A stretch of 36,456 nt of DNA from a virus. Under the pieces are notes generated by a model, which saw only the letters and a list, made by a program, of their open reading frames with translations, was not told the DNA's origin and searched no databases. A program made the position numbers and the translations under genes. The stretch spans positions 1-36,456 of IMG/VR virus record IMGVR_UViG_3300025087_000211; one strand, written 5' to 3'. The first letter of the stretch is position 1, and each line of letters opens with the position of its first letter. Shown here piece after piece: positions 3,512 through 9,172 of this stretch.

Positions 3512-4309
3512 TTAAACTCCTATATTCCAGAACAATATTGGATCAGTTAATTTTTCCAAATTCTCTAATAACCATCGCCAAGCTTTTTTATCATAATATT
3601 CAGAACAAGGAAACGGTGTTTCGATCTTTTCCTGATAATAATAATCTTCTTGTGATTTTATTATAGTCAAATTTTCAGGTATTTCAATAAAATTTTTAAT
3701 CCTTCTAAATTGTCGTTCTGGCGACATTCCTGCCGAAATTGCATAAATATTTTTTAATTTCTTGGATAATCCAGCCGCTATTCCAGAAGTAATCATTCCA
3801 CTTCCAATACAAACAACCAAACTTCCACCTAAAAAATCCTCTATCTTTTCGGCAATCTTTTTTGTTTCAAAAAATGTTTCTTCTATACACAATCCAAGTG
3901 GCATAATATAAATATTTTCTTGTTCCATTATTCTTTTTGCAAGAGCATAAAGCACGGCTGTTCTACCTCCCTCCATCGGGAATAATTTTCCTCCTAACTC
4001 CAAAACTTTTTGCTGATTATAAGGAGTTTCTTTATACTGTTTCAAATGAGGATAAAAATTAAAAACTTCCAACCCTCCCAATTCCTGAGCAATAGCAGAA
4101 ACTCCCCAACCAGCCTTGCTTATCCTTGTGTCAAAAACTCCAATCTTTTTATATCCCATTGCTCTCACTTTTTCCAATCTTTTATAAACTCCACGCAATT
4201 TTGATAAAAATGGGGCGGGATAATTGCAACTCAAATCTTCCCGTTTTACATAAATATCTCGGTCTTTTATGTGGTATTTTTCTATTGGAGTTTGTTCATT
4301 TATTATCAT
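3512..4309 (-). CDS. Fold-type II PLP-dependent enzyme (ACC deaminase/cysteine desulfhydrase-like)
   Basis: With the ATG at 4309 the protein has 265 residues. The opening DRDIYVKREDLS (about 16-27) followed by FLSKLRG (34-40) matches the entry to the PLP site of tryptophan-synthase-beta-type enzymes, with K37 as candidate Schiff-base lysine. TRISKAGWGVSA (61-72) occupies the place of the Ser-Asn substrate loop. VVCIGSGMITSGIAAG (about 155-170) is the glycine-rich phosphate-binding loop. It is shorter than the usual 320-340 aa of free-standing ACC deaminases, so the substrate is probably not a standard amino acid; that is inference. Its start overlaps the radical SAM gene by 14 nt. It is the last gene of the unit that also holds the ParB-like protein, suggesting a joint role in DNA base modification or repair. 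Confidence 0.8.
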   Translation of the reverse strand: MIINEQTPIEKYHIKDRDIYVKREDLSCNYPAPFLSKLRGVYKRLEKVRAMGYKKIGVFDTRISKAGWGVSAIAQELGGLEVFNFYPHLKQYKETPYNQQKVLELGGKLFPMEGGRTAVLYALAKRIMEQENIYIMPLGLCIEETFFETKKIAEKIEDFLGGSLVVCIGSGMITSGIAAGLSKKLKNIYAISAGMSPERQFRRIKNFIEIPENLTIIKSQEDYYYQEKIETPFPCSEYYDKKAWRWLLENLEKLTDPILFWNIGV

Positions 4310-5579
4310 ATTTTTTGTATTTATAAATAATATGACCTTCCTCGTCCATTCCGTCAGCAAATAAATCTACAAAAAATCTTGCTGGATTATTTGGATTTCT
4401 CGGATTATCCCATATAAACATCAACTTTTCTCTGAATGTTTTTTTTCCAAATTGTATATGTTTTTCAGAACTTCCCAAATTAAGCCAACTTCCAATCTCT
4501 GTCCCCAAAAATTCTTTCTCATATTCCGAATTATCATCGTTGACGATATCGCTAAATTTAACAAAACCTTTCTTCTTTGCGATGAATAATGCGTAAGAGG
4601 TTTGCGCTTTGTATGAATTTATTTCATAATCCGCTGGAATCCCGCAACATATACAACTATCGCCAAAACTTCTAAATGCGTTATCGGCGCAATAAAATTC
4701 CAAACCATATTTCTTGCAAAGTTCTTTAAATTCCATTATAACAGGAAATTTATATCTATTTTTGATTTCATAATCAGTTCCGCTAACTCTCCCCTTAAAT
4801 TTATAATATTTTATAATATCATAACCCAAAATTGTGCTTATTTCGTCAAAAACTTTTTTTCCTTTTTCATTTTGAAAAGAACTTAGTTTCAAAAATTCAA
4901 GAGTCATCGCCTTCGCTCCGTTTTCTGCGATAGTTTTAACAAATAATTCTTTTCCTTCTTTTCCATCCAACTCTGGAATATATGGCTGGCAACGAACGAT
5001 CACTCTATTCGTTTTGCTGAAAAGTTTTATTGAATCTAATCGCGCCTGTATACTTGTCCCAGATTCTAACTTCTCTAATTTATTATTCAATGAAATTAAA
5101 CTAATCTGCATTATTAAATTTCTATTTTGTGTTATATTTTCAATATATTCCTGCTCGTCTTTAATCCAAAAACTTTTAGTTGAAATAATAACTGGATATT
5201 GATGCTGTCTGAATAATTTTAGAATTTGCAAACTTGTTTTTTGTTGATTTAATCTCTCAATATTGCTAAAAGGATCAGTAATCCCGCCCCAATGGATTGC
5301 CATACGCTGGGACATCAGTTTTCTATACGTTTTTATAGCTATATTTTCCCCTGCAAGCGGTTTTTCAAACGATTTGGTAAGATTCTCTATGTTCATCTTT
5401 TTATAAACTATTTGAGAGCAAAATTCCTTCTTTTGCGTTGCGAAATTTACAAGATTATTAAAATAAGTGAAACAATACTTACAATTATGCGAACAAACAT
5501 CGTAGGTGTCCAACGAAAAAGGAAATGAACAAAATGGGAATTGTCCATTACACCTCGGGCTTAAATAGTATTTTTCCAT
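4296..5579 (-). CDS. SPL-family radical SAM protein
   Basis: ATG at 5579 gives 427 residues. The cluster-binding motif is CSHNCKYC (C29, C33, C36), the CX3CX2C of radical SAM enzymes, which bind a 4Fe-4S cluster and cleave S-adenosylmethionine. Other segments follow the spore photoproduct lyase/COG1533 layout: WGGITDPFSNIE (about 97-108), PVIISTKS (129-136), LESGTSIQARLDSIKLF (171-187) and VRCQPYIPELDG (195-206). A second Cys cluster lies near the C-terminus (C297, C309, C311, C312, in DSCICCG), as I recall in some phage members, and may bind a metal. Substrate is unknown; family members act on thymine photoproducts or other nucleic-acid bases. It overlaps the ParB-like gene by 32 nt and the PLP gene by 14 nt. 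Confidence 0.88.
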   Translation of the reverse strand: MEKYYLSPRCNGQFPFCSFPFSLDTYDVCSHNCKYCFTYFNNLVNFATQKKEFCSQIVYKKMNIENLTKSFEKPLAGENIAIKTYRKLMSQRMAIHWGGITDPFSNIERLNQQKTSLQILKLFRQHQYPVIISTKSFWIKDEQEYIENITQNRNLIMQISLISLNNKLEKLESGTSIQARLDSIKLFSKTNRVIVRCQPYIPELDGKEGKELFVKTIAENGAKAMTLEFLKLSSFQNEKGKKVFDEISTILGYDIIKYYKFKGRVSGTDYEIKNRYKFPVIMEFKELCKKYGLEFYCADNAFRSFGDSCICCGIPADYEINSYKAQTSYALFIAKKKGFVKFSDIVNDDNSEYEKEFLGTEIGSWLNLGSSEKHIQFGKKTFREKLMFIWDNPRNPNNPARFFVDLFADGMDEEGHIIYKYKKYDNK

Positions 5580-6395: not shown

Positions 6396-6716
6396 TTAAC
6401 TATTCAATGTTTTTTTAAATTCCATATAGTGAACATACTGGTCAATTCCTTCGGTCATCGTAGCTCCAGGTGAAGAATCTTTTGCCGCCTTAGCAGAGAG
6501 ATAACTTTTCCCCATATACAGAATATTATCTTTTTTGTCCCTTACGATATGAAAATTTGCCACTATTCCTTCTTCTGTAATTGCATTTAAGTCTTTCAAC
6601 ATTTGGAACTCCCAATAATGCATCAAACCCATAAATGTCCTGACTATTTTTTCAGTCCCATATTTTATACGAGCATCTTTTATTATTTGAGCCCAATTTT
6701 GTTTATTCTGAGCCAT
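6396..6716 (-). CDS. Hypothetical protein, 106 aa
   Basis: I do not recognise it. The N-terminus (WAQIIKDARIKYGTEKIVRT) reads as a helix, the middle (GIVANFHIVRDKKDNILYMG) as a beta hairpin, and the end (IDQYVHYMEFKKTL) as a helix. Its start overlaps the 3-prime end of the initiator gene by 14 nt, and it ends 5 nt before the ParB-like gene, so it is co-translated with both. It may be a replication partner or a helper of the modification triad; neither can be supported further. Confidence 0.72.
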   Translation of the reverse strand: MAQNKQNWAQIIKDARIKYGTEKIVRTFMGLMHYWEFQMLKDLNAITEEGIVANFHIVRDKKDNILYMGKSYLSAKAAKDSSPGATMTEGIDQYVHYMEFKKTLNS

Positions 6717-7518
6717 ATTTTTTTCTTATTTTTTCTGCTTGGATTTTTGCTTTCTCGTCTTCCGATAAATTTTTCAGGCTTAACTTTTCTAAATCCTCGT
6801 TTATGTATTTGAACACGGTTTCCAACGTCCACTTAAAATTAGCCTTCTGTTCCAGATATTCCATCGTAGCCTTTATCTTTTGGATGTTATAACCTTTCAG
6901 TATCTTTGAAGACCGCAATTCCCTTAAAAGCAATGCCTTAAATTGTTCCTCATTTTCTGCTATAATATTTTTCGTCTGCCAATAAGCAACAACAATGGGC
7001 ATTCTTGCGTCTTGTGATTTTAGCATCTTTTCTATTTTTTCTTGAAAGGAATATTTTCCGCAAGCATCTGCTTGCAATCCGTTAGGTTTAAGTTTAAGTT
7101 TAGGTTTAAGTTTAGGTTTAAGTATACCGAACCCTTCCGAACCCTTCCGAACCCTTCCGAACCCTTCATTTATTTTTGTAAATTTAGCTACAATTTCTTT
7201 GGGTATTCCCAGTTTGCTACGTTCTATCCCTTTTTTCATATTTTCATTCAGGCATTGATGTTTTTCAAAGTTTTTTATGAAAATCCAATTTTCGTGAAAA
7301 TAAATTTTACCATTTAATGCTTCCAAACCCTTCCGAACCCTTCCCTCTTCCAAACCAGTATCAAAGCAGATTCGGTTAATAGTTATCTCGTATATACCAG
7401 ATAATTCCGTCAATGGATTAGTGATGAAATATAAAAATAAAAGTCTATCGTTTGGCGACAGTGATTTGACGAAACTATCGTCCCAAAATTTTGTATCTAT
7501 ATACCGTTTTTTAGACAT
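6703..7518 (-). CDS. Replication initiator/replisome organiser (lambda O/DnaD-type)
   Basis: ATG at 7518 gives 271 residues. The N-terminus (KKRYIDTKFWDDSFVKSLSP, then LLFLYFITNP and SGIYEITINRICFDTG) has the winged-helix pattern of phage replisome organisers. A middle linker (about 119-146) is built of repeated Arg/Gly/Phe and Lys/Pro/Leu units, encoded by DNA repeats that look like an origin. The C-terminal part (ARMPIVVAYWQTKNI and following) is helical and may contact host replication proteins. As in lambda O, the origin seems to be inside the initiator gene. It is the first gene after the promoter at 7648-7676 and its AUG lies directly behind a long RNA hairpin, so its expression is probably controlled post-transcriptionally. 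Confidence 0.8.
   Translation of the reverse strand: MSKKRYIDTKFWDDSFVKSLSPNDRLLFLYFITNPLTELSGIYEITINRICFDTGLEEGRVRKGLEALNGKIYFHENWIFIKNFEKHQCLNENMKKGIERSKLGIPKEIVAKFTKINEGFGRVRKGSEGFGILKPKLKPKLKLKPNGLQADACGKYSFQEKIEKMLKSQDARMPIVVAYWQTKNIIAENEEQFKALLLRELRSSKILKGYNIQKIKATMEYLEQKANFKWTLETVFKYINEDLEKLSLKNLSEDEKAKIQAEKIRKKYGSE
7083..7342. other. Candidate replication origin: iterons inside the initiator gene
   Basis: Four perfect tandem copies of the 10-mer CCGAACCCTT (plus strand) occupy 7127-7166. Two more copies, CCAAACCCTT and CCGAACCCTT, lie at 7323-7342. Directly beside the first block, 7083-7124 is a run of 6-bp T/A-rich units (TAGGTT/TAAGTT/TAAGTA). Ten base pairs is about one helical turn, so bound initiators would sit on one DNA face. 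A 10-bp unit cannot keep the reading frame, so the repeats are unlikely to be selected for protein sequence. Iterons plus an AT-rich block within the initiator gene is the lambda ori arrangement. The origin role is inferred. Confidence 0.65.
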
Positions 7519-7621
7519 ATTAAAACACAAAAAGCCCCCAACTACTTACAAGGCTACACGGCTAAGTGCTACACCTTTTGGGTAGTTAAGGACTTTCTGT
7601 ATTCTAATTTTTAGCCGTGTA
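7519..7621 (-). promoter_or_regulatory. Structured RNA leader: 27-bp helix plus pseudoknot pairing, abutting the initiator AUG
   Basis: In the minus-strand RNA, 7608-7582 pairs with 7545-7519 in 27 consecutive pairs, six of them G-U, with no mismatch or bulge. The helix ends at the base before the AUG at 7518. The upstream segment TACACGGCTAA (7621-7611) is perfectly complementary over 11 nt to TTAGCCGTGTA (7565-7555) inside the 36-nt loop, giving the a-b-a'-b' order of a pseudoknot. The upper half of the helix followed by GC and U5 also resembles an intrinsic terminator. The G-U pairs would be mismatches in the opposite strand, so pairing is specific to the transcribed direction. No known riboswitch class is recognised. 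Confidence 0.75.
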
Positions 7622-7647
7622 ATTTGTAGCATATCTTTTGCAATTTA

Positions 7648-7676
7648 ATTATGCCTCGCTTTTTAAAAAAAGGCAA
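7648..7676 (-). promoter_or_regulatory. Sigma70-type promoter of the replication/modification unit
   Basis: A -35 box TTGCCT (7676-7671) and a -10 box CATAAT (7653-7648) are separated by 17 bp. The transcript would start near 7640 and carry a leader of about 120 nt containing the structured element before the initiator AUG at 7518. Confidence 0.7.
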
Positions 7677-7969: not shown

Positions 7970-8074
7970 TTAATTATTTATAAGCCAAATGCAAAATAAA
8001 ACGAACCCAATAATTGCGCCCAAACATCCCCAAAAGCAACTTTTTATAAGTTTTCTTTTGGTAGCGTCTCCCAT
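7970..8074 (-). CDS. 34-aa single-helix membrane protein overlapping the peptidase gene
   Basis: The ORF starts at 8074 inside the 3-prime end of the peptidase gene in another frame and stops at 7972-7970, 5 nt before the 59-aa gene. The protein has a basic N-terminus (MGDATKRKLIKS) and one hydrophobic helix with several Cys and aromatic residues (CFWGCLGAIIGFVLFCIW). The gap between the peptidase and holin-like genes is otherwise empty, and overlaps of about 30 nt are common in this genome. It may be part of the lysis set (antiholin or spanin-like). It is short, so chance cannot be excluded. Confidence 0.45.
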   Translation of the reverse strand: MGDATKRKLIKSCFWGCLGAIIGFVLFCIWLINN

Positions 8075-9138
8075 AAAGATTTTTTAACTGGAACCCCTCC
8101 ACGTTTCATCTCCAAGGCGACAAGAATCTCAACAATTTTTTCTTTCGTGGGCGCAACAAGAACCTTTCCCCCCTTAATCAAACCAAGTGTTCCGCTCTCC
8201 TCTGTCTCCTGAATGATTTTTCCGTCATTCTGTTTTAGAAATTCCATATAATTAAAGTTAGGTTTATCAATCGCTGTCCAAAGAGAAAATGAGAACGAAC
8301 TTGTCATTAAACTTTCGGGCATCCATCCCCAACCATTCTTCCCCCAATATTCTCCCCAGCTATTTATAATTCCAAAATGTGGCTTGTCTTCTACCAACCC
8401 TAACTTGCCATAAAACATACAGTGTCCGCCCTCTTTGCGTTGCGGCATTTTTATAATCCCTTGTGAATTGACGCTCCATCCTTTTGTATAACATCCACCG
8501 ACAGCTCCAAAATTTAAAACCATCACGTTCGCTATCACATCTGGAACAGCGTTGTCCAAGGAGGCATAAGACAATGATTCAAACTTGGCGGCTCTTTCTC
8601 TAACCTCGGGAGTCATATTTGTTTGTCTAAACCAGCTCATCAATGCCTCCTTGTTAGATATTTCGTTCGTATAGGAAGGAACATCCGTCTCCAACGCAAT
8701 TCCGTAATTCAACCATTCGTCCATTCCGTCTCTAATATAAGCTCCGTAGCTGGTAGCAATGCGCGAAAACAAATCCTTTGCAGATAAATCAGTAAAAGCG
8801 CCCTCGTCTATAAATTGCAAAACCTCTGCGTATTTATGGACACCCTGTCCTACGCACGAATCACTTTGATATTGATTCTCCACTTTCAATTTTACTGGTT
8901 TAATTCCTTTGTTCTTGCAATAAACCATCAATTCTTGCGCTTTTTGAACCGACCAATCTTTTAAAAAGTCCTCACGAGATACAAGTTTTCTGTATCCCAA
9001 CAATAACTCAATATCAAAGCCAATTTCCCAGTTAAATTTTTGAATCACTGCGTCACCTAAAATCTGTTCAGCTTTGTAATCCCTGCCGTCTGGGATGTCT
9101 TTTAATGCACCAGTGCCAAATTTTTGTTCGTTTTGCAT
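8044..9138 (-). CDS. Papain-like (C1A) cysteine peptidase
   Basis: With the ATG at 9138 the protein has 364 residues. The catalytic triad of the C1A family is visible. Cys95 is in QYQSDSCVGQG, the place of the papain QGxCGSCW motif. His239 is in EGGHCMFYG, and Asn259 is in IINSWGEYWGKNGWGW, the hallmark NSWGxxWG box. The start DIPDGRDY is typical of bacterial and viral C1 peptidases. There is no signal peptide, and about 80 residues follow the catalytic domain. It sits after the tail-fibre genes and before two tiny membrane proteins, where an endolysin is expected. It could degrade host surface protein or act in lysis; both are inference. A GTG 33 nt further upstream would put a hairpin inside the coding region and is less likely. 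Confidence 0.87.
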   Translation of the reverse strand: MQNEQKFGTGALKDIPDGRDYKAEQILGDAVIQKFNWEIGFDIELLLGYRKLVSREDFLKDWSVQKAQELMVYCKNKGIKPVKLKVENQYQSDSCVGQGVHKYAEVLQFIDEGAFTDLSAKDLFSRIATSYGAYIRDGMDEWLNYGIALETDVPSYTNEISNKEALMSWFRQTNMTPEVRERAAKFESLSYASLDNAVPDVIANVMVLNFGAVGGCYTKGWSVNSQGIIKMPQRKEGGHCMFYGKLGLVEDKPHFGIINSWGEYWGKNGWGWMPESLMTSSFSFSLWTAIDKPNFNYMEFLKQNDGKIIQETEESGTLGLIKGGKVLVAPTKEKIVEILVALEMKRGGVPVKKSLWETLPKENL

Positions 9139-9147
9139 AAAAATTTC

Positions 9148-9172
9148 GGTGGTTTTTAGCGGTGAAACCACC
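9148..9172 (-). promoter_or_regulatory. 8-bp perfect hairpin before the peptidase gene
   Basis: GGTGGTTT and AAACCACC form eight perfect pairs with a 9-nt loop between the zinc-ribbon stop (9185) and the peptidase ATG (9138). There is no long U tract, so it may be a processing or translation-control hairpin rather than a terminator. Confidence 0.5.

Follow-up and report, generated by a model that had tools for sequence, protein, structure and literature searches.

The window, by which we mean the whole 36,456-nucleotide viral DNA analyzed here (IMG/VR record IMGVR_UViG_3300025087_000211), encodes on its minus strand a leader RNA in which two pairings interlock directly ahead of the replication initiator gene: elements II and IV pair as the two arms of a hairpin, and element I pairs with element III inside the hairpin loop (Table 1). 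The element is real and very likely regulatory, heading phage replication operons, and we read it, at a probability of about 0.6, as a leader attenuator of the replication operon in which I:III serves as a transient antiterminator. The observations behind this reading comprise both pairings, their recurrence in related phages, covariation, the computed order of folding, and an excess of upstream ORFs.

Direct reading of the minus strand confirms the 27 consecutive pairs between II and IV, six of them G-U and without a bulge, that a sequence-only reading of this DNA had proposed, and the helix ends on the nucleotide adjoining the initiator AUG (7518-7516). The perfect 11-nt complementarity of I to III, also noted there, is present and gains a twelfth pair, U7622-G7554 (G-U). 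Its suggestion of a terminator-like option likewise holds, since a G+C-rich hairpin (GUAGUUGGGGGC) followed by the U5 tract is in place. The minimum free energy of the leader, a check that had been proposed, is -47.2 kcal/mol compared with -25.5 ± 3.3 in dinucleotide shuffles (z = -6.5; 0/200), and scans of both strands reveal the 27-bp hairpin as the longest uninterrupted one in the window, with a runner-up of 19 bp. The 11/12-nt loop match is equalled by about 0.5-0.8% of shuffled upstream stretches; it is modest taken singly and becomes decisive only in combination with the relatives. An Rfam search with the window leader matched nothing, even at E ≤ 1, nor did the leaders of 13 relatives match anything at gathering thresholds; the element is thus absent from Rfam.

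Table 1. Features of the replication leader and its surroundings in the window
Feature	Positions	Strand	Sequence	Basis
Element I, near the predicted leader 5' end, partner of III	7611..7621	-	TACACGGCTAA	Sequence; shuffles, p about 0.005-0.008
Element II, 5' arm of the 27-bp hairpin	7582..7608	-	ATTAGAATACAGAAAGTCCTTAACTAC	Sequence, folding, hairpin scan
Element III, hairpin loop, complement of I	7555..7565	-	TTAGCCGTGTA	Sequence; prefix folding
Element IV, hairpin 3' arm, reaching the initiator AUG	7519..7545	-	GTAGTTGGGGGCTTTTTGTGTTTTAAT	Sequence, folding
U5 tract behind the G+C-rich inner helix, terminator-like	7529..7533	-		Sequence; prefix folds
Predicted promoter	7648..7676	-	TTGCCT-17-CATAAT	Consensus scan, 9/12; weak by itself
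Upstream ORF, 28 codons, ATG7632-TAA7546, across I, II, and III	7546..7632	-	MLQITRLKIRIQKVLNYPKGVALSRVAL, then stop	Sequence
Replication initiator / DnaD-like helicase loader, first gene of the operon	6703..7518	-		PHROG 1701, E = 2.5e-18; PHROG 6251, E = 1.6e-12

To examine recurrence, we gathered homologous initiators from viral contigs, cultured phages, and one Bacteroidetes MAG, the only MAG locus found in scans of genome contigs. Where the initiator, or one small gene ahead of it, heads the operon, the relatives frequently show the four elements in the order seen in the window: I close to the promoter, then arm II, then III as the complement of I, and last arm IV, which pairs with II and closes with a U-tract, with T-rich tails after the hairpin as in intrinsic terminators. 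The I/III sequences of five such leaders (L141, ACACTTACGCTG/CAGCGTAAGTGT; L150, TGGACAAAATAGATA/TATCTATTTTGTCCA; L145, ATGGCGTtaGTTAAGGA/TCCTTAACggACGCCAT; L135, CACCTCATTAC/GTAATGAGGTG; L203, TGCAATGGTACC/GGTATCATTGCA) are unrelated to one another despite the common design. Searches of viral contigs with the element III 14-mer gave chance matches only, and a blastn comparison of the leader with phage records found no real match. Terminator-like hairpins lie within 450 nt at only about half of the non-redundant initiator loci (24/48), which counts against the attenuator reading. We then took a terminator-like hairpin as given and compared the strongest complementarity between its loop and the 70 nt before the hairpin with that in shuffles; p ≤ 0.01 was reached by 7 of 25 initiator-leader hairpins versus 3 of 117 other hairpins on the same contigs (Fisher p = 2e-4), and by 2.6% of 469 hairpins from 119 random viral contigs. 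The sequence-only reading had made its proposal depend on related phages with conserved initiators also conserving the pairing. This stood in part: many relatives keep the design through full turnover of its sequence, but only when the initiator gene comes first, or almost first, in its operon; it was not found at homologues inside an operon and is absent from all four cultured Firmicute-type homologues examined (E2, D6E, PVJ1, and EalM-137).

Two further results bear on the pairing. In a symmetric wobble test, the leader helices contain 112 G-U against 64 A-C appositions (p = 4e-4), an excess that indicates pairing read in the sense RNA, as had been supposed from the G-U pairs of the window, and that points to selection acting on that RNA. 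A pattern scan also found a subfamily with conserved I (GGUUUCGCAG) and III (UUGCGAA). Among 12 distinct members, all 8 tested II:IV pairs carry changes on both sides, and 97.7% of II:IV cells are paired, compared with 23-50% in slid controls; the count was made in equal-length segments, the MAFFT alignment of whole subfamily leaders having misaligned II and IV. The covariation supports the II:IV helix but is not proof alone, because the segments were picked for complementarity. Members of the GGUUUCGCAG subfamily stand before initiators and also before non-initiator genes (L340, L395, L343, and L297), two of which we named by eye as HNH-like (L340) and KilA-like (L395). Because these leaders precede initiators and other early-type genes alike, the element is a module rather than the property of one gene, and this subfamily is a mobile or widely reused leader module of Bacteroidota-type phages.

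The computed order of folding suggests how the two pairings could be used. Prefix folding of RNAs ending at III gives I:III as the dominant pairing in 12/12 leaders (P 0.73-0.99), reaching 0.95 in the window once III is transcribed; in the full-length leaders, II:IV replaces I:III, almost completely in most of the 12. The crossover in the window comes only at 7533, the first U of the U-tract. The several newest bases are still under the polymerase, so at the point where termination is decided I:III should remain in place unless I or III is occupied. We propose that the transcript starts directly 5' of element I and that III, on leaving the polymerase, would pair with I to form an early hairpin holding arm II in its loop. 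Once IV is made, the long II:IV hairpin could form, with the U-tract completing an intrinsic terminator and the outer pairs reaching the initiator start codon. Persistence of I:III with polymerase on the U-tract would let transcription run on into the initiator, whereas occupation of I or III (by a factor, a ribosome translating the upstream ORF, or another molecule of the terminated leader RNA) would allow II:IV to form and expression to stop; a free leader would thus mean readthrough and a blocked I or III termination. Translation of the upstream ORF may later reopen II:IV and bring ribosomes to the initiator AUG. We infer the transcription start, the terminated RNA, and the readthrough in this scheme, and with them actual termination, I:III as the "on" fold, and what tips the balance.

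The sequence-only reading had left the choice between a pseudoknot and a switch. The existence of two alternative folds is upheld, and the calculations favor a sequential switch, I:III first and then II:IV; the programs fold without pseudoknots, so the two pairings might coexist, and a permanently folded pseudoknot is possible. From its broader claim of a new cis-regulatory RNA, what survives is a cis element at the head of a replication operon, absent from Rfam and recurring in related phages. Two identities offered for it found no support: a metabolite riboswitch was dropped because the leaders have no common conserved unpaired core, and nothing pointed to a protein-binding autoregulatory site for the initiator. 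Other candidates were also set aside. The topology of HDV-like ribozymes has the same strand order but was rejected, the linkers being far too long and P1 unconstrained. Invertible DNA or integron-type repeats, CRISPR-repeat mimics, and retron msr/msd were dropped with no associated gene or feature present.

Cultured flavobacterial phages of five lineages carry the design, mostly behind a TAnnTTTG-type promoter. The I:III match has p = 0.003 in Tenacibaculum phage JQ, 0.006 in Olleya phage Harreka_1, 0.016 in Flavobacterium phage 11b, 0.004 in Cellulophaga phage phi19:3, 0.034 in elemoA, and 0.003-0.010 in filifjonk and its relatives; the Muumi group and phi13:2 likewise carry it. Whole-genome scans of JQ, 11b, Harreka_1, and the window show the replication leader as the sole intergenic sense-strand match at p ≤ 0.02 in each, with one further match apiece in 11b and the window that lies within or antisense to genes. 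Two phages of the same host strain, elemoA_1-9A and elemoA_13-1A, are 98-99% identical on both sides of the leader and 93.5% identical in the spacer between its two loops, yet the loop containing I and the terminator loop containing III have both been replaced, with the I:III pairing kept (GAGAGC/GCTCTC versus GAGATG/CATCTC). This replacement resembles, by analogy, the specificity-setting loops of plasmid antisense systems.

It is mainly because of these matched, swapped loops that we considered action in trans. Here the terminated leader would be a small regulatory RNA whose exposed loop III base-pairs with element I on freshly transcribed leaders of its own type, freeing II for IV and causing termination; replication would be limited, or superinfecting phages of the same type excluded, as in P4 immunity or plasmid incompatibility. 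Matched hypervariable loops are a signature of trans specificity, and a purely cis switch would not need its loops to change. In JQ, 11b, and elemoA, a 5' hairpin presents element I in its loop, and L203 carries a second copy of I (GCAATGATAC) over the initiator AUG, about 10 nt before the AUG, in an arrangement like that of seqC in phage P4; in a search of the window and relatives for such a downstream second site, it was the only one found. Against this stand the restriction of swapped loops to one close pair, a search of the window for extra sites complementary to III that gave none with clear significance, and the possibility that the loops diversified by drift under a cis pairing constraint together with recombination. 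We regard self-repression in trans as possible but doubtful. Its generalization, in which self-recognizing leader RNAs are widespread, chiefly in Bacteroidota phages, with I as target loop, III as anti-target in the terminator loop, type-specific trans repression by the terminated RNA, and loops diversifying between close relatives, is slightly more doubtful still.

The upstream ORF, which the sequence-only reading does not mention, raises the alternative that translation is what the leader controls. The stop codon of this ORF in the window adjoins IV. ATG frames spanning I to III occur in 11 of the 13 leaders whose hairpin directly precedes the initiator, with 3.1 expected (P = 2e-6); one of the 11, in L135, probably starts inside the promoter. 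The ORF stops at most 10 nt from the initiator AUG in L139, L143, L145, L147, L194, and L203, and phi19:3 and phi13:2 retain the same ORF by way of two compensating one-base indels. Under translational coupling, II:IV would hide the initiator start codon until a ribosome on the upstream ORF opened it, III would control the ORF through its start region (I), and termination would be secondary. The excess of spanning frames, the closeness of their stops to the AUG, and the compensated indels all favor such coupling, as does the hairpin itself, which in the window, L141, and L150 continues across the U-tract and reaches or enters the AUG region. The RNA design also occurs without a spanning ORF, however, in L151, JQ, and other leaders; the peptides show little sequence conservation between leaders; and the hairpins of JQ, 11b, Harreka_1, and the Muumi phages precede a small gene rather than the initiator AUG. 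Because leaders without an upstream ORF exist, the RNA design is primary and the ORF optional, although translation probably matters in many members. Coupling as the principal mechanism is accordingly rather unlikely, on a par with action in trans, and we continue to favor attenuation with I:III as the antiterminator.

The surroundings of the leader bear on whether it is simply a terminator. On the minus strand, its 5' side holds a papain-like protease gene (8044-9171), a small ORF, and a terminator-like hairpin at 7765-7740 recognized from sequence. The protease belongs to the papain family of cysteine proteases (PF00112), which is unusual in a phage lysis region, if the region is one. The predicted promoter of the window overlaps a TAAATTG sequence that comes close to the Bacteroidota -7 box of our motif list, and relatives have TAnnTTTG or TATAAT directly 5' of element I. 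A plain intrinsic terminator shielding the replication operon from upstream late transcription, with the loop complementarity arising by chance, would fit the terminator-like II:IV hairpin and U-tract and the late genes lying upstream on the same strand. It is nevertheless very unlikely: the hairpin at 7765-7740 already stands behind the upstream gene, the promoters of relatives sit between the upstream gene and the leader hairpin, and I:III is enriched over matched controls and kept through loop replacement. A function in the DNA, with the inverted repeats that adjoin the initiator gene acting as repressor operators or as a hairpin in the firing of a replication origin, is the least probable reading of all given the sense-strand excess of G-U over A-C, the fixed position of the U-tract, and the interleaving of two repeat pairs whose sequences are unrelated between phages.

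Downstream of the initiator, the minus strand encodes a ParB-like protein and, further on, RecT-like and exonuclease proteins; a PLP-dependent enzyme fold (threonine dehydratase-like, PHROG 7093) lies at 3512-4360 within this replication/recombination region. The host of the window phage is likely a member of the Bacteroidota, because a Shine-Dalgarno-like sequence was seen in only 1 of the 29 genes examined and the top homologue among cultured phages is in Tenacibaculum phage JQ. The initiator gene contains short tandem repeats at 7082-7168 and 7313-7344, in GAACCCTTCC units and TTTAGGTTTAAG units, possibly an origin-type iteron array inside the gene. The initiator is also modular: its product and that of L009:2545-3345 have a common C-terminal domain (44% identity) and different N-terminal domains. 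The L009 leader has a 22-bp hairpin too, spanned by a short ORF (beginning MLKLKIKKYTSFNYK), and upstream of that leader, at L009:2092-2225, is an inverted repeat of 21-22 bp (ATTATTTAAGAGCTAGAATGG) with arms about 92 nt apart.

The timing of early genes in Bacteroidota phages is poorly understood. Cultured phages whose hosts are marine and freshwater bacteria (Flavobacterium 11b, elemoA, Muumi, Cellulophaga phi19:3, Tenacibaculum JQ, and Olleya Harreka_1) carry the design at the head of the replication module, and its role is directly testable in these laboratory-tractable carriers. Because topology alone is conserved, and not sequence, homology searches of the Rfam type miss it, which suggests that further sequence-free RNA designs are being overlooked. 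If the loops do act in trans, they would provide RNA-only control of superinfection or copy number, with no protein repressor; phages would then have their own equivalent of plasmid incompatibility, and the leaders would be a natural supply of orthogonal RNA switches.

Among known systems, the leader of phage P4 is one of the closest: a CI RNA derived from the leader pairs with seqA and seqC, leading to premature termination of the replication operon (PMC4825925). Both systems control a replication operon through its leader, by a pairing that governs premature termination and involves an upstream complement in the same transcript, the site complementary to the leader loop corresponding to I:III in the window, relatives, and cultured phages. 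They differ in having no sequence relation, in residing in different phages (here probably of Bacteroidota), in the placement of the complement, here within the loop of an intrinsic-terminator hairpin, and in the processed RNA, known in P4 only. In plasmid pT181, a kissing interaction between an antisense RNA and a 5' hairpin frees a terminator that stands before the initiator gene (PMC4878617). The likeness lies in the succession of 5' hairpin, antiterminator, and intrinsic terminator upstream of the gene for a replication initiator, and in specificity set by kissing loops (PMC4878617). The ligand of pT181, in contrast, is an antisense RNA from the opposite strand, whereas here the complementary loop lies within the same RNA, and I pairs with the terminator loop (III) rather than with arm II or IV. 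In the window, the opposite strand carries only a weak consensus promoter (7376-7405, +) near the leader.

The RepY-RepZ plasmids (IncI-alpha/IncB/IncL-M) combine a leader peptide with a pseudoknot (references in PMC10724649). As in those plasmids, a short ORF and an RNA whose pairings interleave come before the initiator here, and the ORF spans the RNA and stops near the initiator start in the 11/13 leaders counted above, the window included. The RepY-RepZ pseudoknot activates translation, an antisense RNA represses, and there is no terminator U-tract; here every leader of the design has a U-tract terminator, but the short ORF is found in some only. Amino-acid and pyrBI attenuators likewise have a short leader ORF overlapping the terminator hairpin, but the present leaders have no regulatory codon run, their peptides are unconserved, and the genes controlled are those of phage replication. 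Nothing like the design was described for Bacteroidota phages in the literature searched, which included few subscription papers; the design is probably a so far unreported way of controlling phage replication by RNA, and apparently a class of RNA element new to the literature. Because it has no regular seqC site, because I pairs with a loop and not with a terminator arm, and because its leader ORF is optional, we have not filed the design with P4 CI, pT181, or RepY-RepZ, although it works like them.
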